Positions 11,019-46,941 are shown, counted from the first letter of the stretch. The stretch: DNA of 64,000 nt from Candidatus Magnetomicrobium cryptolimnococcus (GCA_018606805.1 JAGYWI010000009.1:1-64000), one strand, 5' to 3'. Notes: generated by a model not told the origin, from the sequence alone. Translations and numbers: made by a program.

Positions 11019-11073
11019 TTGACAATTTAAAAAACACAATATATAATAATAGATATTGAAATTGGATTTCAAT
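11019..11073 (+). promoter_or_regulatory. fur promoter with Fur-box-like operator
   Basis: TTGACA (11019-11024), a 17-bp spacer and TATAAT (11042-11047) make a consensus sigma-70 promoter. Just downstream, over the expected start of transcription, lies the perfect palindrome ATTGAAAT-TGG-ATTTCAAT (11055-11073). The same TTGAAAT-N3-ATTTCAA motif precedes feoB, so this looks like Fur autoregulation. Confidence 0.75.
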
Positions 11074-11086
11074 TAGAAGAAAACCT

Positions 11087-11512
11087 ATGACAATTGAAGC
11101 TAAAGAAAGATTTGATCAATATTTATCGAAGAAAAATTTAAAGAAAACTCATCAAAGAGGCCTTATTGTTGATATATTCCTCAAAAGTGCTAAGCACTTA
11201 ACCTATGAAGAGCTCTATGAGGTGGTCAAAGCTAAGGATAAAACCATTGGGCTTACTACTGTTTACAGGACATTAAAGTTACTAACGGAGTCAGGCATTG
11301 CAAAGACAGTTGACTTTGGTGATAGGGTCATACGTTATGAAAACACCTTCTGCAGTGGACACCACGACCACTTGATATGTATACGGTGTGGCAAAAATAT
11401 TGAAATATTAGACGAAAATATCGAAAAACTGCAAAGAGAAATAGCTAATAGGTATGGCTTTACACTTAAAGATCATACAATGTCTCTCTACGGGATATGT
11501 AATGAATGTTAA
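11087..11512 (+). CDS. fur: Ferric uptake regulator (Fur family)
   Basis: This 141-residue DNA-binding metalloregulator has an N-terminal winged helix (about 1-80, with GLTTVYRTLKLL as the recognition region) and a dimerisation domain with SGHHDHLIC, CIRCG and a terminal CNEC. The two CxxC pairs would hold structural zinc, and the His-rich segment the regulatory metal. Fur, PerR and Zur share this plan. Location immediately upstream of feoAB and the fez-like genes, and Fur-type palindromes at all three promoters, favour iron sensing. It was probably acting as an iron-dependent repressor of the whole locus. Confidence 0.88.
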   Translation: MTIEAKERFDQYLSKKNLKKTHQRGLIVDIFLKSAKHLTYEELYEVVKAKDKTIGLTTVYRTLKLLTESGIAKTVDFGDRVIRYENTFCSGHHDHLICIRCGKNIEILDENIEKLQREIANRYGFTLKDHTMSLYGICNEC

Positions 11513-11553: not shown

Positions 11554-11570
11554 TTGAAATTAAATTTCAA
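11554..11570 (+). promoter_or_regulatory. Fur-box-like operator upstream of feoB
   Basis: Perfect palindrome TTGAAAT-TAA-ATTTCAA, with the same half-sites and 3-nt spacing as the fur operator at 11055-11073. It lies 38 nt before the chosen GTG start of feoB. An ATG-led reading of the frame from 11554 would put coding sequence across this operator, which argues for the downstream start. Confidence 0.7.
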
Positions 11571-11607: not shown

Positions 11608-14025
11608 GTGACGGTAGCATCGCTTAAGCCCGGTGAAAAAGGCAAAATTAAAAAAATCATAGTAGATGGACCAATGAAGCGGCGACTTATGGACATGGGA
11701 TTACTTGTTAATGAGGAAATAGAGGTGGAAAGAGTCGCCCCCTTTGGCGGTCCCATTGAAGTAATCGTTAAAGGGTACAGTTTGTCTATTAGAAGAAAAG
11801 AAGCACGGGAAATATTAATAGACACTATACATGATAATAGCTATATTGATGAAAGCCAAGGTAAGGCTATAACGATAGCAATAACAGGTAACCCTAACTC
11901 AGGCAAGTCCACTTTGATTAACTCAATAGCAGGCACGAGGCTTCAAGTTGGCAACTGGCCGGGTGTTACTATTGACAAAAAAGAGGCATTTATAACACAC
12001 AAAGATAACACCATCAAACTCATAGACTTGCCAGGAACATATAGTCTAAGCCCCTACACTCAAGAACAGTTGATAGCCAGAGATTACCTGATTAACTCCA
12101 AACCGGACCTGATAATCAACGTAATTGATGCAACAAATCTGGAAAGGAGCCTGTTTTTTACAATTCAACTGCTTGAGCTTAACTTACCCGTAATTGTTGC
12201 CCTAAATATGTTTGACGAGGTGGAAAAGAAGGGGTATAAGATTGACATTAAAAAAATACAACAAATATTGGGTGTAAAGGTTATTCCGACTGTTTCTACA
12301 AAGAAAAAAGGTCTTAATGAACTGATGGATGCGGTATTAGAAGTCGCTGAAAACAAAACGCAATATTTGCCAAAACACTTAAATTATGACGAAGATATTG
12401 AAACAGCCATAAAAGAAATAACCAGTATAATTGTCAATGATTTTCCTACTTTAACAGCAGATAGTCCTATAAGGTGGCTTGTTATAAAATTAATAGAGCA
12501 TGACAGGTATGTACTTAAGGAGACAAATATTCCCATAGACAGCATCTACAAAAGTACGGCAATCAAGCATCTACAAAAGGCACACGGTGATGATTTAGAG
12601 ACCATTATAGCCGACGCCAGATACGCCAAGGCCACAGGTCTTGTGCACGAGGTGCTTGAAAGACCCGGTCTTAAAAAAACAGAGGTTACGAAACGCATTG
12701 ATGCCATTGTTTTAAATAAGGTGTTAGGGTTACCAATATTTTTTGTAGCCATGTGGCTAATGTTTAAGCTAACTTTTGATCTATCAGCACCGTTTGTAGA
12801 TTGGATAGATGCTGCAACGGCAGGTCCGATAAATCGCTGGTCTTCTGAGCTATTGGCCACCATTGGGGTATCTCAGTGGTTAGTGTCGCTAATTACGGAT
12901 GGCATTATCGGCGGGGTAGGCTTTGTTATGGTATTTATACCAGTGATAGCGGCTATGATGTTTTTTATCACATTTTTAGAAGGAAGCGGCTATATGGCAC
13001 GTGCTGCCTTTGTTATGGATAGGGCTATGCACAGCATGGGATTGCATGGTAACTCGTTTATACCGATGATACTTGGCTTTGGCTGTAATGTGCCAGCAAT
13101 CTATGCTACAAGGACGTTAGAAAATCCACAAGATAGGATACTCACCTCGTTACTTATTCCGTTAATTTCCTGTGGGGCTCGATTGCCGGTTTACGTATTA
13201 TTTACCGGGGCCTTTTTCCAAGACTCCGCCGCTATTGTCTTGTGGTCTATATATGTTATAGGCATATTTTTGGCTGTAGTTATGGGGATTTTTTTTAGAA
13301 AGACCATATTTCATGGTGACTCCCCGATGTTTATTTTAGAGCTTCCACCATACAGAATCCCCACTTTTCGTAACCTTATGATACACACATGGGAAAAATC
13401 TAAACATTTTGTCGTAAAGGCCGGTACGTACATACTTGCAGCTTCCATTATTGTATGGTTTTTATTTAATCTGCCGTGGGGGGTTGAACACAAGAAGGAC
13501 TCTTTGCTTGGAAAGGCTGGACAAACAATTGCTCCGATTTTTAAACCGCTTGGCTTTGGCACTTGGGAGGCTACATCGAGTTTGCTGACTGGCATTGTAG
13601 CAAAGGAAATAGTGGTAGGCACAATGGGGGAAATTTACGCTAAAGAGGCAGCACTAAAAGACGATGAAACACCAAGTTTTAGCGACGATTTAAAGCTTCT
13701 TGGCACTTCCTTTATGGATGCGGCTAAAGATGCGGTATCAAACGTTGTATCCACTTTCGGCATTTCTTCGTTTTCAACAGAGGCAGATGAACAAACCACT
13801 GGCGTAATCCCTTATGTGCGAAAGACCTTTACTCCGCTGTCGGCTTATGCTTTTATGGTATTTGTGCTTTTGTACATGCCATGCCTTGTAACCGCTTTTG
13901 CCTTTAAACAGGAATTTGGCACATGGAAGTGGTTTGGCGTAGCCCTTATCTACGGATTTACGTTAGCTTGGGGTATGGCGTTTATTATTTATCAAGGTGG
14001 AACTCTTTTAGGTATAGGCGCTTAG
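11608..14025 (+). CDS. feoB: FeoA-FeoB fusion, ferrous iron transporter
   Basis: This is an 805-residue inner-membrane Fe(II) importer. A FeoA (SH3-like) domain occupies about residues 1-75. The GTPase follows with G1 GNPNSGKST (94-102), DLPGTYSL and NMFDE. A helical GDI region precedes two Gate domains and about 10 membrane segments (about 365-800), including SGYMARAAFVMDR and GFGCNVPAI. I chose GTG 11608 because of its TCTGGAGG site. The longer frame from 11554 reads through the operator and adds a non-family extension. Fusion of FeoA to FeoB is known in several phyla. It lies downstream of fur and upstream of the ferrosome-like genes. Confidence 0.95.
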   Translation: MTVASLKPGEKGKIKKIIVDGPMKRRLMDMGLLVNEEIEVERVAPFGGPIEVIVKGYSLSIRRKEAREILIDTIHDNSYIDESQGKAITIAITGNPNSGKSTLINSIAGTRLQVGNWPGVTIDKKEAFITHKDNTIKLIDLPGTYSLSPYTQEQLIARDYLINSKPDLIINVIDATNLERSLFFTIQLLELNLPVIVALNMFDEVEKKGYKIDIKKIQQILGVKVIPTVSTKKKGLNELMDAVLEVAENKTQYLPKHLNYDEDIETAIKEITSIIVNDFPTLTADSPIRWLVIKLIEHDRYVLKETNIPIDSIYKSTAIKHLQKAHGDDLETIIADARYAKATGLVHEVLERPGLKKTEVTKRIDAIVLNKVLGLPIFFVAMWLMFKLTFDLSAPFVDWIDAATAGPINRWSSELLATIGVSQWLVSLITDGIIGGVGFVMVFIPVIAAMMFFITFLEGSGYMARAAFVMDRAMHSMGLHGNSFIPMILGFGCNVPAIYATRTLENPQDRILTSLLIPLISCGARLPVYVLFTGAFFQDSAAIVLWSIYVIGIFLAVVMGIFFRKTIFHGDSPMFILELPPYRIPTFRNLMIHTWEKSKHFVVKAGTYILAASIIVWFLFNLPWGVEHKKDSLLGKAGQTIAPIFKPLGFGTWEATSSLLTGIVAKEIVVGTMGEIYAKEAALKDDETPSFSDDLKLLGTSFMDAAKDAVSNVVSTFGISSFSTEADEQTTGVIPYVRKTFTPLSAYAFMVFVLLYMPCLVTAFAFKQEFGTWKWFGVALIYGFTLAWGMAFIIYQGGTLLGIGA

Positions 14026-14041
14026 GCTTATACTTAAATTC

Positions 14042-14209
14042 TATACCAAAAAAAATATGGTTTGCAAATCTTTATATCAAAGAAAAGGACTAAAGAATGA
14101 GGGCGCTGCCCTCATTCTCCCGCCAAAGGGACTCGTCCCTTTGGAATCCCATATCTGGAAATCCATACTTTACTCATTATTTTTCGCAAACCTAGTTTAT
14201 TTGAGTATA
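14042..14209. mobile_element. MITE, TIR family TATACC...GGTTTGCAA (copy 1, 168 bp)
   Basis: Ends are TATACCAAAAAAAATATGGT and the inverse of TATACTCAAATAAACTAGGT, giving inverted termini of about 26 bp. The interior holds GC-rich hairpins (GGGCGCTGCCC and GGGACTCGTCCC) and no gene. Related copies are at 17839 (right end lost), 46708-46941 and 51060-51295. A 2-bp TA target is likely. This copy sits between feoB and the fez-like promoter. Confidence 0.8.
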
Positions 14210-14218
14210 GAAATTTTA

Positions 14219-14249
14219 TATAATAGATGAAATTAATGTTCAATTTCAT
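14219..14249 (+). promoter_or_regulatory. fez-like operon -10 and Fur-like operator
   Basis: TATAAT lies at 14219-14224, followed by the palindrome ATGAAATT-N7-AATTTCAT (14227-14249). The half-sites match those at fur and feoB, but the spacing is 7 rather than 3, which may mean overlapping Fur sites. Any -35 would fall inside the right end of the MITE and is poor. Confidence 0.6.
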
Positions 14250-14262
14250 GAAGGAGAACGAA

Positions 14263-14691
14263 ATGGTCGTAAGCTTTATAGATGGTAGATTGAGAGTAAG
14301 AGACGAAGCGCTAAAAATACCTATTATGGCTTATAAACTTAAAGATAAGCTCATGACTATTAACGGTGTAATAGATGTTTCAGTTAGTTACAAAGTAGGC
14401 AGCCTTTTGATTATTTATAATGCCCCAGCACTAAACATAGATATGCTCATGGAAGTCATTGCTCCATATGTGTCAACAAAGGACAATTACAAATCTGTTA
14501 CGAAAAATAGTAGCATACAACCCTTGCTTATCAATAGACATGTCATCAACACGGGCATGCTTCTTTCATTAACAGTAAATATTGTTAGTGCACTATCAGG
14601 TATTAAAAGCCTACATATAAGTTCAGGGATTGCGTTTTTAATGTTTTGTTTAAATCATATCTACAAACACAGACGTTTATTATTTGCATAA
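14263..14691 (+). CDS. HMA-like membrane protein of the ferrosome-like operon (FezC-like)
   Basis: This is a 142-residue protein. The N-terminal HMA-like fold (about 1-75) carries an arginine-rich GRLRVR (8-13) where metal-binding CxxC would be in ordinary HMA domains. Two hydrophobic segments follow (about 100-120 and 122-138), so it is probably membrane-anchored with the HMA part in the cytosol. HMA-like proteins with Arg motifs accompany the P1B-6 ATPase FezB in ferrosome clusters. I chose ATG 14263 (AAGGAGA site) because the frame start at 14227 lies inside the operator. It is first gene of a tight five-gene operon. Confidence 0.7.
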   Translation: MVVSFIDGRLRVRDEALKIPIMAYKLKDKLMTINGVIDVSVSYKVGSLLIIYNAPALNIDMLMEVIAPYVSTKDNYKSVTKNSSIQPLLINRHVINTGMLLSLTVNIVSALSGIKSLHISSGIAFLMFCLNHIYKHRRLLFA

Positions 14692-14704
14692 GGAGACAGT
14701 ACTT

Positions 14705-15103
14705 ATGATAACTACTAGTGTATTGCCAGGCAGAGTTAGGTTTGAGATACCTACTATAAAGGGACAGCTCAACTCGTGTACATACCTGCAAGATAAACTT
14801 ATGAACACACAAGGTGTATTTCATGTATCAACTAATCATAGGACAGGACGGCTACTTATCAAATTTGATGAAAAAGTACTAAGCCCACATATATTAAAAA
14901 CTCACATAAACGCTATTTTTAAATCACATTCAAGTCATGTAGAAGATGAAGCACAGCAAATAAATAGCCCTATTAGCCACGGCAACTATGGTGATTCTAT
15001 TGTAAGCACATTGCTAAATGTGGCAGTACACGCCTTACTGCCTAAGCCCCTTGACGTACTATTTCCCATAGCCATGAGGTTTGTAAAATCAGCCGATAGC
15101 TGA
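14705..15103 (+). CDS. HMA-like protein with PGRVR motif (second FezC-like)
   Basis: This 132-residue protein begins with an HMA-like domain (about 1-75) bearing LPGRVRFEIP (7-16). This is the same Arg-rich replacement of CxxC as in the gene before and in the ATPase N-terminus. A weakly hydrophobic C-terminal stretch (TLLNVAVHALLPKPLDVLF) could associate with the membrane. The ATG has an AAGGAG site overlapping the previous stop. The three related HMA-like units in a row suggest duplication within the operon and a structural or regulatory role with the ATPase. No exact function is assigned. Confidence 0.65.
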   Translation: MITTSVLPGRVRFEIPTIKGQLNSCTYLQDKLMNTQGVFHVSTNHRTGRLLIKFDEKVLSPHILKTHINAIFKSHSSHVEDEAQQINSPISHGNYGDSIVSTLLNVAVHALLPKPLDVLFPIAMRFVKSADS

Positions 15104-15141
15104 TTATCTACATACATAATAATTTAAATGGAGGAGTGCAA

Positions 15142-15537
15142 ATGCTTGATGAAAATAATAATGAACAACATACGGACAATAATAATGAACAAGGTGAACA
15201 TGATATGGATGGATGGGTTATCAGCAAAAAGAGCCTGTGGTTAACGGCCGCAGGGGCCTTTGGTGCTCTGGGTGCAATAGCGCTTGCTAAGCTATCTAAT
15301 AAGATGAGGCCTGCTGTGGTTGGTACGGTTAAGGAGGGGTATGCCTTTAAAGAGTGGATGGCTTCAAAAGCCGCCAAGACTAAGGAGGACGTTGAGGATA
15401 TAATCGAGGAGGCTAAATATGCGTATACTAAAGACCTTGAGTCAGCCTCGGATACCGTGCGACGGGAAAAAGAGATATTAGAAAAGATAGAAAAAAAAGT
15501 TGAAGCCCAAATTGCTAAGAATAAGGAGGAAAACTAA
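15142..15537 (+). CDS. Small membrane protein with acidic head and coiled coil, fez-like operon
   Basis: This 131-residue protein has an Asn/Glu-rich N-terminus (1-27), one Ala/Gly-rich membrane segment (about 35-55, LTAAGAFGALGAIALA) and a charged helical tail (about 75-131, Lys/Glu heptads). GAGGAG lies 5 nt before ATG 15142. Ferrosome clusters encode small hydrophobic proteins of this kind (for example FezA of Clostridioides difficile), which makes a membrane-shaping or scaffold role attractive. I do not claim orthology. Confidence 0.55.
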   Translation: MLDENNNEQHTDNNNEQGEHDMDGWVISKKSLWLTAAGAFGALGAIALAKLSNKMRPAVVGTVKEGYAFKEWMASKAAKTKEDVEDIIEEAKYAYTKDLESASDTVRREKEILEKIEKKVEAQIAKNKEEN

Positions 15538-15539
15538 TC

Positions 15540-15731
15540 ATGGATTCTAAGAGTAAGACCAAGGGATACTTTCGTGGGGCTTTAAATATTCTTGTTGGTA
15601 TAGGCTCCGTAGTTGTTGGCTCGTATGTCTTTTCAAGGATTAACGAAAAACAAGACACTCAGACCAGACTAGAAAGAATGGAAAGCATACTCGATAAACT
15701 TGAACAAAACGATGGACACGATAACAAATGA
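15540..15731 (+). CDS. 63-residue single-span membrane protein, fez-like operon
   Basis: A short basic N-terminus is followed by one membrane helix (about 10-31, rich in Gly/Val) and a polar helix with heptad pattern (about 36-56). The ribosome site AAGGAGG lies inside the end of the previous gene and its stop overlaps the ATPase start (ATGA), so translation is coupled. This is an organisation expected for a subunit or assembly factor of the ATPase. I know no named family for it. Confidence 0.55.
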   Translation: MDSKSKTKGYFRGALNILVGIGSVVVGSYVFSRINEKQDTQTRLERMESILDKLEQNDGHDNK

Positions 15732-17875
15732 ACTACGTTATAACACATGAGTTGCCCAAAAGACTAAGGCTAAGTCTTATAATGCCAAAGAGGATTATTT
15801 TAGATACCATTCAAATAGAAACTCCGCTTACCACTTTAAATGGAGTTAAGAAGGTATCGTTTAATCATAAAACACTGAACTTGTTAATACTATATAACGG
15901 AAGCCACTCAGTTAAAGCGACACTTTTAAAGGCAATCCATGATATTCCATTAACCATAGGTAGAAAACAGGCACAAAAACCAACCACTCTTAGTAAGAAA
16001 AGGGCTGCTGTCATTATTTCAGGCAGCCTCTTAGCCCTACGGCCGCTCATCCCCCTACAGGTGCGTCCTTTTATAACCTTTTATGGAGCCATTCCTATAT
16101 TCAAAAAGGCAATAAGGGAACTTTTTAATAAACGGTTAAACGTAGACGTCCTTGACTCCACAGCTATAGCCAGCGCTATGCTAACAAAAGAATATCTAAC
16201 GGCCAGCGTTATATCATTTTTGTTAAAGGTCAGTGAGTATTTCGAGGAATGGACAAGACACAGGGCAAGAACTAATCTTAGGGGGGTTTTTGATTTTCAT
16301 GGAAGACGCTCATGGGTACATAGAAATGGCATAGAGGAAGAAATTGACACAAAAGACATCAAAATAGGAGACATCGTTGTAGTAAGGGCAGGGGCTCATA
16401 TACCAATAGACGGCATTATAATAAAAGGCGAGGCTATGATTAATCAGGCATCTTTAACAGGCGAGCCACTGTCTGTTATAAAGCGCACAGGAGTCACGGT
16501 ATACGCCGGTACAGTAGTAGAGCAAGGCTGGATTTTGATAAAGACGACAAAGACAATAGACGAAACACGCATATCCAAGATGATTGCCCTAATAGAGGAT
16601 TCTGAACGGCTTAAGGCAGACGTCCAAAGCTATTCTGAGCGCCTTGCTGATAGAATTGTACCATATACTTTTTTCTTTAGCGGTATAGTATATCTTTTTA
16701 CAGGTAATAGCATTAAGGCTGCATCAGTACTAATTGTAGATTACTCATGTGCCATTAAACTGTCAACACCTCTAACGATAAGGTCTGCACTAACTGATGC
16801 CTTAAAACAGGGCGCTTTTATCAAAGGTGGAAAGTTTATAGAAAAGCTAGCAATAGCGAATACTTTTATATTCGATAAAACAGGGACACTCACTGAAGCA
16901 AGGCCTAAGGTTGTTGATGTAAGAGCATTTAATGGATACAGTAGAGACTATATATTAAGAAATGCCGCCTGCGTAGAAGAACACTTCCCGCACCCAGTAG
17001 CCAGCGCAGTTGTTAAAAAGGCACAAGAGGAAGGCTTAATTCATCATGAAAACCACTCAGAGGTGGAATATATCATAGCCCACGGTATAGCGTCCAAGAT
17101 AGACGGTAAGCGCATTCTTGTTGGCAGCCGACACTTTATACATGAGGATAATCAAATCAGTGTAGAAGGAGCTGAGCATATTATAAAGGACTCGGCACAA
17201 AGCGGCCACTCTATCTTATACATAACTATAGGGGATGAGTTGGCAGGCGTTATCACCGTTAATGACCCTGTAAGAGCCGAATCTTATAATTTCCTCCAAT
17301 ACCTAAAGGATGATAATACAGTAGAGCGGATAATCATGCTTACAGGCGACCATAGAGTATCTGCAAAATACGTAGCCCACAAACTCGGTATAAACGAATA
17401 CTACAGCCAAATGTCTCCAGAGGATAAGCTCGACATAATTCAAGGGCTTCAAAATCAAGGTCATACCGTTATAATGGTTGGTGATGGAATAAACGACTCC
17501 CCCGCCCTATCACTTGCGGATGTAGGTGTATCAATGAAACAAGGAGCAGATATAGCAAAGGAAACATGTAATGTTGTACTTTTAGATGGCAATCTGGAGA
17601 AAATTCTCATATCACGCACTATAGCTAGAAATGCCATGCTGCGCATTAAACAGCACTTTCGATATATTATTGGAACCAACACCTTTCTTATATGCTTTGG
17701 ATTAATAGGGGTGTTACCTCCTGTGTTTTCAGCTTTAATACATAATAGTACCACTGTAGCCGTGGCTGTTAATTCCTTACAACCATTAAAGATAAAAAAA
17801 AAGAGAAAAGACAAAAAAAATAGCGGGGATAAACCTTTTATACCCAAACAAATTAGGTTTACAAACCACTATTAA
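15728..17875 (+). CDS. fezB: P1B-6-type metal P-type ATPase, ferrosome-like FezB
   Basis: This 715-residue ATPase has an N-terminal HMA-like domain (about 1-75) with the Arg motif PKRLRLS (10-16) instead of CxxC. Membrane segments follow, then the actuator TGEP (244-247), the transport-site motif SCA (340-342) in place of CPC, the phosphorylation site DKTGTLT (D383) and hinge GDGIND (585-590). It ends with two membrane helices closing at HNSTTV...NSL. SCA plus an Arg-rich N-terminus fits the P1B-6 class, whose member FezB builds iron-storing ferrosomes. It overlaps the 63-residue gene by 4 nt. The last about 13 residues (after KPF) are encoded by a MITE that inserted at the 3' end. Confidence 0.8.
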   Translation: MNYVITHELPKRLRLSLIMPKRIILDTIQIETPLTTLNGVKKVSFNHKTLNLLILYNGSHSVKATLLKAIHDIPLTIGRKQAQKPTTLSKKRAAVIISGSLLALRPLIPLQVRPFITFYGAIPIFKKAIRELFNKRLNVDVLDSTAIASAMLTKEYLTASVISFLLKVSEYFEEWTRHRARTNLRGVFDFHGRRSWVHRNGIEEEIDTKDIKIGDIVVVRAGAHIPIDGIIIKGEAMINQASLTGEPLSVIKRTGVTVYAGTVVEQGWILIKTTKTIDETRISKMIALIEDSERLKADVQSYSERLADRIVPYTFFFSGIVYLFTGNSIKAASVLIVDYSCAIKLSTPLTIRSALTDALKQGAFIKGGKFIEKLAIANTFIFDKTGTLTEARPKVVDVRAFNGYSRDYILRNAACVEEHFPHPVASAVVKKAQEEGLIHHENHSEVEYIIAHGIASKIDGKRILVGSRHFIHEDNQISVEGAEHIIKDSAQSGHSILYITIGDELAGVITVNDPVRAESYNFLQYLKDDNTVERIIMLTGDHRVSAKYVAHKLGINEYYSQMSPEDKLDIIQGLQNQGHTVIMVGDGINDSPALSLADVGVSMKQGADIAKETCNVVLLDGNLEKILISRTIARNAMLRIKQHFRYIIGTNTFLICFGLIGVLPPVFSALIHNSTTVAVAVNSLQPLKIKKKRKDKKNSGDKPFIPKQIRFTNHY

Positions 17876-18070
17876 AAATAATCAGGAAACAAATACAAAG
17901 TGAGGGCGCTGCCCTAACACTCCCGCCGAAGGTGCGGCAGCACAACAGGGAGGTGTGCCTACACAACAGGGAGGTGTGCCTACACACCAGGGAGGTGTGC
18001 CTACACACCCCTTGAACCCCAAAAAACACTATTTTCGTGAGGTATAAAAAAACACCACTATTATTTTTCG
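17839..18070. mobile_element. MITE, TIR family TATACC...GGTTTGCAA (copy 2, right end lost)
   Basis: The left end TATACCCAAACAAATTAGGT lies inside the last codons of the fezB-like gene and supplies its stop. The interior has three tandem GGGAGGTGTGCCTACACA units. The right terminus is missing and the sequence merges near 18070 with a family C repeat. Confidence 0.75.
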
Positions 18071-18515: not shown

Positions 18516-18548
18516 CCTTCCACAAATTAAGGTGGAAGGTTTTTTTTT
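18515..18548 (+). terminator. Intrinsic terminator/attenuator in the pyrimidine leader
   Basis: Stem ACCTTCCAC / GTGGAAGGT (9 bp, 8-nt loop), followed at once by nine T. It lies after the promoter and 40 nt before the first structural ATG with no gene ending before it, so it should act as an attenuator. Confidence 0.75.
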
Positions 18549-18588
18549 GAAGTATTATAACAATAAATTAATAGAAGGAGTTTTGAAT

Positions 18589-20022
18589 ATGGAAAAATTA
18601 GATACAACTATTGAGATGCTTTCGTTTAATCTAAAACTCCTCGCTAACAAGAGTAAAAAAAATATTCTCATTAGTGCTGGCAAGGTTTCTGATAAGCAAA
18701 AGATGCTACCAGCGGTACAAAAACTCTTAAACCTCAATATTGTTATTTATGCAACTAAGGGCACAAGCCTCTTTTTTAACGAAAACGGTATACCTAACAT
18801 AGAGATTTTCAAAATAGCTGAAACGAAAGAACCTAACATTATGTCTTTTTTGAAAAATGACAGATTCGATATAGTTGTCAACATACTTACTGGTAATAAT
18901 GATTATGATGAGGCATCCGATAGTAACCTAATAAGGAAGCTTTCCATTGAAAATGGCATACCGCTCATTACGGATGTGGACGTTGCTATAATGACAATAG
19001 AGCAGATGGTTGAACGACGGCAGCGGTCTATTTCCCGGTACAAGATTGTAGATGGCAGTGAGCCTTGGAATTTGAAGCTGGAGTTTTTTCAACTGATAGA
19101 CAAACTTGGTGGCTTTGCTTGTTATCATGCCCATTTCGATAAGGCATACTTGATAAATATGGAAAATCTGAAACTTGGGCACGTTGATATGAAAAAGAAG
19201 TGGGAGCTTTACAGGTATTTAAAAGAAAATTATACGCCTGAGGACCTTGTGCAGAGAATATCGAGGGCTCTTAATAAAATGATAGAGCAAGGGGTTACTT
19301 ACTGCCGTACCTTTGTTGATGCCGATAAGACCGTTAAGCTGCTTCCTTTGCAAGCTGCCTTGACTGTTAAGGAGGCGTATAAGGGGAAGATTTATTTTGA
19401 AATAGGCGTGCAACCGCTTGAAGGGGTTTTAAATAGTGAGGGACGTAAGCACTTTTTCGATGCCTGTGTTAAGGCGGATGTCATTGGCGGGCTGCCTTCT
19501 CGGGATAGACCGCGTATGGAAAACCACTTGGATATTATAATGCGTATGGCAAAGGATTTGAATAAGCGCCTTGATGTTCATGTTGACCAAGAAAATAATC
19601 CCTATGAGGACGAGACAGAGCTTTTAGCCAAAAAGACTATTCAGTACGGCCTTGAGGGGCGCGTTAGTGCTGTGCATGCCATTTCTGTTGCTGCTAAACC
19701 GGAGATGGAGATGAACAGGATTATTGGGCTTATTAAAGATGCTGGGCTTAACATTATTGTGTGTCCGTCGGCAGCACTTAGTATGAAGCCGCTTTCAAAC
19801 ATAAACGCCCCCATACATAATTCCATAGCACCTGTTGTTCGGTTTATTGAGGCAGGGATACCAGTATATATTGGTACTGATAACATTAATGACCTATTTA
19901 TGCCCGTTTCGGATGGCGATATGTGGTTTGAGTGCAGACTTTTAATGGAGGCTTGCAGGTACTATGATGTAGAAAAAATAGCTCAGATTGCTACTGATAA
20001 ACGGGGTTTTACAGCAATATAG
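18589..20022 (+). CDS. MGS-like regulatory domain fused to a cytosine-deaminase-like amidohydrolase
   Basis: This is a 477-residue protein. Residues about 18-140 resemble the methylglyoxal-synthase-like (MGS) fold that forms the allosteric C-terminus of CarB (KNILISAGK, YATKGTSLFF, INGIPLITDV-like strands). Residues about 165-477 are an amidohydrolase barrel of cytosine-deaminase (CodA) type with HAH (H180, H182), H331, H363 and D431. The position of CodA's catalytic Glu is Gln (Q334, in HVDQEN), so activity may differ. I chose ATG 18589 (GAAGGAG site); a GTG at 18532 falls in the terminator. It lies 52 bp before carA, after an attenuator. I infer a pyrimidine role, perhaps nucleotide-regulated salvage. 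I know no published example of this fusion. Confidence 0.7.
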   Translation: MEKLDTTIEMLSFNLKLLANKSKKNILISAGKVSDKQKMLPAVQKLLNLNIVIYATKGTSLFFNENGIPNIEIFKIAETKEPNIMSFLKNDRFDIVVNILTGNNDYDEASDSNLIRKLSIENGIPLITDVDVAIMTIEQMVERRQRSISRYKIVDGSEPWNLKLEFFQLIDKLGGFACYHAHFDKAYLINMENLKLGHVDMKKKWELYRYLKENYTPEDLVQRISRALNKMIEQGVTYCRTFVDADKTVKLLPLQAALTVKEAYKGKIYFEIGVQPLEGVLNSEGRKHFFDACVKADVIGGLPSRDRPRMENHLDIIMRMAKDLNKRLDVHVDQENNPYEDETELLAKKTIQYGLEGRVSAVHAISVAAKPEMEMNRIIGLIKDAGLNIIVCPSAALSMKPLSNINAPIHNSIAPVVRFIEAGIPVYIGTDNINDLFMPVSDGDMWFECRLLMEACRYYDVEKIAQIATDKRGFTAI

Positions 20023-46707: not shown

Positions 46708-46941
46708 TATGCCCAAACAAATTAGGTTTGCACGACATTATTAAAAATAATAAGGAAACAAATACATAGTGAGGGCACTGCCCTCACACTCCCGCCAAAG
46801 ATGCGTAGGCGCACAGGGAGGTGCGGGGGCGCACTCCCGTAAAGTGTGCCTACACACCCTTGAACCTCAAAAACACTATTTCATGAGACATAATAAAAAA
46901 TACTGCTATTATTTTTTGCAAACCGTTTTTATTTTGGTATA
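46708..46941. mobile_element. MITE, TIR family TATACC...GGTTTGCAA (copy 3, 234 bp)
   Basis: Left end TATGCCCAAACAAATTAGGT, right end the complement of TATACCAAAATAAAAACGGT. The interior has GGGCACTGCCC, GTGCGTAGGCGCAC-type hairpins and the TGAACCTCAAAAACACTATT stretch found in copies 2 and 4. No transposase gene is in the window. Confidence 0.85.

Follow-up and report, generated by a model that had tools for sequence, protein, structure and literature searches.

The window analysed here is a stretch of 64,000 nucleotides from Candidatus Magnetomicrobium cryptolimnococcus (GCA_018606805.1 JAGYWI010000009.1:1-64000), which carries five genes, orf1 to orf5, on its plus strand at 14263-17875. A first-pass annotation, made from the sequence alone, had described these as tightly packed genes of a ferrosome-like (fez) operon next to fur and feoAB. 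The ORF calls bear out this arrangement, with fur and a feoA-feoB fusion lying directly upstream of orf1 (Table 1). The intergenic distances from orf1 to orf5 are 13, 38, 2, and -4 nt, the last being a 4-nt overlap of orf4 and orf5, and the five genes were read as a single operon with the order fezC-orf2-fezA-orf4-fezB. For orf1, the start at 14263 was chosen over a longer mechanical ORF from 14227, because a Shine-Dalgarno sequence (AAGGAG) lies ahead of it and the related proteins begin with M-I/V-x-S.

Table 1 Features of the fur-feoAB-fez region (positions counted from the first letter of the window).
Feature	Position	Strand	Remarks
Sigma-70-like promoter of fur	11019..11047	+	TTGACA-17-TATAAT, 12/12 match; consensus match only
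Fur-box-like 7-1-7 palindrome, fur leader	11057..11071	+	TGAAATTGGATTTCA, 1 mismatch
fur, ferric uptake regulator family	11087..11512	+	PF01475, E=1e-35
Fur-box-like perfect palindrome, feoAB leader	11555..11569	+	TGAAATTAAATTTCA
feoA-feoB fusion, ferrous iron importer	11608..14025	+	Probable GTG start at 11608, preferred over TTG at 11554
Dispersed palindromic repeat, upstream flanking copy	14081..14129	+	
Operator-like inverted repeat	14228..14248	+	TGAAATTaatgttcAATTTCA, immediately ahead of the ribosome-binding site of fezC
orf1 (fezC), 142 aa	14263..14691	+	HMA-fold domain and two-helix membrane segment, probable DUF4405-like cytochrome
orf2, accessory HMA_2 protein, 132 aa	14705..15103	+	HMA fold, without CxxC
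orf3 (fezA), 131 aa	15142..15537	+	One membrane helix and charged helical tail; related to DUF6110 proteins
orf4, one-helix membrane protein, 63 aa	15540..15731	+	Marker of one FezB clade
orf5 (fezB), P1B-6-type ATPase, 715 aa	15728..17875	+	YSCA motif; N-terminal HMA_2 domain degenerate, with no CxxC
Dispersed palindromic repeat, downstream flanking copy	17884..17932	+	78% identical to the upstream copy

The class of the ATPase could be read from its motifs. An SCA-type membrane motif, instead of CPC, CPH, SPC or TPC, marks the P1B-6 class of P-type ATPases. Besides DKTGT and GDGINDSP, orf5 carries VDYSCAIKLSTP ahead of DKTG, at the place where copper and zinc pumps carry CPC. The YSCA membrane motif is thus confirmed, as is the Arg-motif N-terminus that had also been noticed at first sight (LPKRLRLSLIMP, with no CxxC); this N-terminus is a degenerate domain resembling HMA_2, whose E value of 0.0035 falls short of the Pfam cut-off. 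Fe(II) is the substrate of P1B-6 ATPases (PMC7558416). orf5 is the sole SCA-type P-type ATPase found in the genome. Among solved structures, copper and zinc exporters come nearest to it, at about 250 bits, so that no close structure exists for it.

A scan of a genome collection covering 84,980 species yielded 80 named relatives of orf5, and trees of 121, 77, and 23 sequences were built, the second of which leaves out three unrelated DKTG proteins that had spoiled the rooting of the first. In the 77-row tree, the SCA-type ATPases from the window, the S. magneticus locus, Lachnospiraceae and others fall on one side (support 92), 22 CPC ATPases split off at a support of 99, and orf5 sits in a 12-row clade (support 99), which comprises 13 rows in the 23-row tree (support 100/100). 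Over the three trees, the clade that holds orf5 has a support of 99 to 100. The members of this clade come from Nitrospira, a contig labelled Methanoperedens, Geobacter, Syntrophaceae, and Thermodesulfovibrionales; its next relatives are the FezBs of S. magneticus and Firmicutes, with the CPC pumps well apart. A position within another P1B class had been named beforehand as speaking against a ferrosome operon; instead, orf5 groups with the S. magneticus FezB, apart from the CPC-type ATPases. The ATPases of six family members (L008-L013), which are 35% identical to orf5, were rejected as FezB, given that their motif reads DFGTG and that they form their own branch at 100. These P1B-like proteins have no cysteine in the membrane motif, and in L008 the gene adjoins those for an HMA_2-like protein and small membrane proteins; they may belong to another metal or compartment system.

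The partner proteins proved more specific than had been supposed. orf1 and orf2 had been taken for two HMA-like proteins with GRLRVR and PGRVR motifs, respectively, and both are indeed HMA_2 proteins (Pfam PF19991, E 5e-9 and 3e-13), but orf1 is more than an HMA partner and corresponds to FezC. It matches the FezC of the S. magneticus locus L108 (phmmer 1.8e-9), and both proteins hit the same two Pfam families, HMA_2 and, weakly, DUF4405; the DUF4405 hit of orf1 lies below the Pfam cut-off (E 0.058). The AlphaFold model of orf1 (mean pLDDT 85.5) consists of an HMA fold, with structural matches to MerP and CopZ-type HMA domains, and a two-helix hairpin. In the second helix of this predicted hairpin, which follows the HMA-fold domain, His118 and His132 stand 14 residues apart and are invariant in 19 FezC sequences. 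FezC has been described as a DUF4405-like heme protein, and that of Desulfurispirillum indicum binds heme b (PMC10979944); by analogy, the FezC of the window may bind heme as well. orf2 has the same HMA fold as orf1, without the hairpin. None of the HMA-type proteins of the window (orf1, orf2, and the N-terminus of orf5) has a CxxC motif, and they are thus unlikely to be classical metal chaperones.

The other two genes had been called small membrane proteins, which holds insofar as orf3 and orf4 have one predicted membrane segment each, but orf3 can now be named more precisely as FezA. It matches the L108 FezA with an E value of 7.6e-11. At nearly every locus whose flank was long enough, the orf3 profile also detected a homologue upstream of fezB. 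Homologues of orf4 were found only beside the FezBs of the orf5 clade, and on these comparisons orf4 is a marker of that one clade. With orf1 as FezC and orf3 as FezA, the set amounts to fezABC plus two accessory genes (orf2 and orf4). Homology and gene content mark it as a genuine ferrosome operon that varies on an established type.

Solidesulfovibrio magneticus is the species in which ferrosomes were discovered, and L108 was taken as its fez locus from the species label and the gene content. Both this locus and the window contain homologues of FezA, FezB, and FezC, with the SCA motif in FezB and with HMA_2 and a DUF4405-like hairpin in FezC, and S. magneticus also makes magnetosomes. In contrast, the order in L108 is FezA-FezB-FezC, as against C-orf2-A-orf4-B in the window, neither orf2 nor orf4 lies nearby, and the fez genes have cydAB and a gene with an HD domain as neighbours instead of fur-feoAB; the two FezB proteins are 45% identical. 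Closer in layout are two Geobacter MAGs (L045 and L049), in which all five families recur in an identical order (HMA_2, HMA_2, FezA, orf4, FezB), except that the first HMA_2 protein of L045 has no clear His-bearing hairpin in the alignment. Because the five genes recur there, the set represents a subtype and not a one-off. The impression that this gene set differs from those known was therefore partly right, but the arrangement is not unique. Related fez sets also occur in Nitrospira, Thermodesulfovibrionales, and others.

Grant is said to have described, in 2022, six-gene fez operons in R. palustris and S. putrefaciens, for which a six-gene set on an Azospirillum plasmid (L038) was used as a proxy. 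FezC, a second HMA_2 protein, small membrane proteins, and an SCA-type FezB are common to this set and the window. However, the Azospirillum operon has a YtxH/DUF5132-like protein where the window has a clear FezA, its FezB forms a separate branch of the FezB tree, and its two small proteins gave no usable match to orf4, so that a relationship between them and orf4 was discarded. With Clostridioides difficile-type fezAB, the window shares FezA (DUF6110) and an SCA-type FezB, a likeness drawn through Lachnospiraceae loci and not through C. difficile itself; in such loci, e.g., L120, no HMA_2 or orf4 genes were found. Some further features of the fez loci were seen on the way. In Solidesulfovibrio, and likewise in a relative from the Nitrospirota, fezC has an HD-domain (HD-GYP-like) gene as its neighbour (L108:8255-8947, L062:8308-9021, L168:3440-4099), which is a possible signalling link. 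A Nitrospira MAG contig (L043) contains two fez sets in opposite orientation, while a contig labelled Candidatus Methanoperedens, an archaeon (L042), contains a fez set of the orf5 clade, reflecting either gene transfer or a binning error.

Two findings go beyond the first-pass annotation, the first being an operator-like sequence shared by fur, feoAB, and fezC. In the whole genome (3.59 Mb), the sole 7-1-7 palindrome with no mismatch is that of feoAB, and the sole one with a single mismatch is that of fur. The fezC leader carries a Fur-box-like TGAAATTAATGTTCAATTTCA with two mismatches to this palindrome, a level at which the form is not rare (52 genome matches versus 36 for the reversed control). 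A shared 18-bp form, TGAAATTNNNNTTCAATT, occurs three times in 3.59 Mb, namely in the fur, feoAB, and fezC leaders, and its reversed control has 0 genome matches; since these three sites supplied the pattern, the evidence lies in its absence elsewhere and not in its presence here. The classical E. coli-type Fur box (TGATAATNATTATCA), whose 20 loose matches in the window include none at fezC, was dismissed in favour of the TGAAATT-type palindrome. Shuffled sequence holds as many promoter-like sites as the region itself. C. difficile fez is Fur-repressed (PMC12574912), and Fur may likewise bind the putative operators of the window.

In Nitrospirae bacterium MYbinv3 (G001), which is listed among the magnetotactic Nitrospirae, there is an orf2-fezA-orf4-fezB set (L007/L130) whose first gene is accompanied by TGATAATGAATTTCA, a sequence resembling the sites above; no fezC was found near this set or in the genome at E 0.001. 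In the 400 bp upstream of the Geobacter fez sets L045 and L049, no clear match to a Fur box was seen. The adjacency of fez to fur-feoAB was dropped as a conserved trait, because fez and feo lie on different contigs in G001.

These data also bear on a rival explanation, in which the genes form a metal-efflux operon whose ATPase exports Fe(II) or another metal over the cytoplasmic membrane for detoxification. The HMA_2 proteins would then be docking partners, and no organelle would be made. FezB is, after all, a P1B ATPase with Cu and Zn exporters as its nearest solved relatives, and there are P-type ATPases, such as that on a Priestia plasmid, that have HMA_2 neighbours but neither FezA nor FezC. 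Here, however, both ferrosome partners are present, and the operator-like sequence that fezC has in common with fur and feoAB would suit expression when iron is short, the wrong condition for an iron-efflux system; we therefore regard efflux as unlikely. That the operon at 14263-17875 builds ferrosomes is, in our estimate, about 85% probable. What the sequence shows is homology, operon layout, motifs, the shared operator-like sequence, and co-occurrence with magnetosome genes, while vesicle formation and Fe transport would follow those of the characterised systems.

The second new finding is that contig C68 of this genome, a contig other than that of the window, carries a magnetosome gene cluster (L128, C68:1-20000). 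Its MamK and MamM score 473.7 and 364 bits, above the NCBI cut-offs of 400 and 350, respectively; homologues of MamB, MamP, MamE, MamA, MamI, and MamQ are clear matches below their cut-offs, and the cluster also holds coiled-coil proteins. A magnetochrome domain was detected in all 13 family genomes tested versus none of the 8 genomes of other families. Together with the cluster, this indicates that the genome of the window is probably that of a magnetotactic Nitrospirota. A FezB of the orf5 kind is much scarcer: at the thresholds used, the family has it in 2 of 20 genomes and the phylum as a whole in 4 of 396. Such a patchy distribution suggests transfer or frequent loss. For the window and G001, the choice between common ancestry and independent gain of fez was given up, as the two are not joined in the trees, although a clade uniting them is not rejected (p-AU 0.138). 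Proteins of the ferritin family are encoded in the genome of the window as well, so that ferrosomes need not be the main iron store.

With a magnetosome cluster in the same genome, the fez operon could be thought to serve magnetosome formation, supplying iron to magnetosome vesicles with no separate ferrosomes being made. The distributions argue otherwise: magnetochrome in 13/13 family genomes against SCA-type FezB in only 2/20 indicates that magnetosomes do not need FezB. In addition, the fez operon and the magnetosome cluster lie on different contigs, and the ferrosomes of D. magneticus are separate from its magnetosomes (PMC9160268; PMC12748827). A magnetosome role thus appears very improbable.

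If the operon does build ferrosomes, its working can be envisaged as follows. In iron shortage, Fur would release the three operators (fur, feoAB, and fezC), and FeoAB would import Fe(II). FezA and FezC, together with the accessory membrane proteins, would make or coat membrane compartments, which FezB would load with Fe(II) using ATP. A FezC homodimer, as a probable b-type cytochrome, would act as an electron shuttle that adjusts the redox state of iron across the compartment membrane. More speculatively, orf2 might add one more HMA domain for docking or as a scaffold, while orf4 might be a small membrane organiser; both are candidate accessory genes for ferrosome assembly.

On the wider reading, we lean towards the view that uncultured magnetotactic Nitrospirota run magnetosomes as well as ferrosomes, the latter built by a fez subtype of its own kind. 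The additional components of this subtype (the second HMA_2 protein and orf4) would set apart a branch that evolves separately, and here Fur would control it together with feoAB. A single uncultured cell may thus sort iron between two compartments. As far as we found in the literature, the two organelles have been documented together in one cultured bacterium, D. magneticus, and a second, unrelated phylum with both gene sets raises the question of how one cell divides its iron between magnet and store. Uncultured Nitrospirota with large magnetosome loads would also gain a testable iron reserve.

Several minor features surround the operon. Copies of a dispersed palindromic repeat flank it on both sides, but the idea of a fez cassette moved by these repeats was abandoned, because both copies belong to a genome-wide family; with at least 26 exact copies of the core GAGGGCGCTGCCCT in the genome and further copies in the window at 46771, 51122, and 53665, such flanking is weak evidence and probably incidental. 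Just 3' of fezB, at 17930-18007, there are three similar 21-bp tandem units (AGGTGTGCCTACACACCAGGG). Farther downstream, at 18532-20022 and directly upstream of carA and carB, a single ORF fuses an MGS-like domain to an amidohydrolase, which is unusual.
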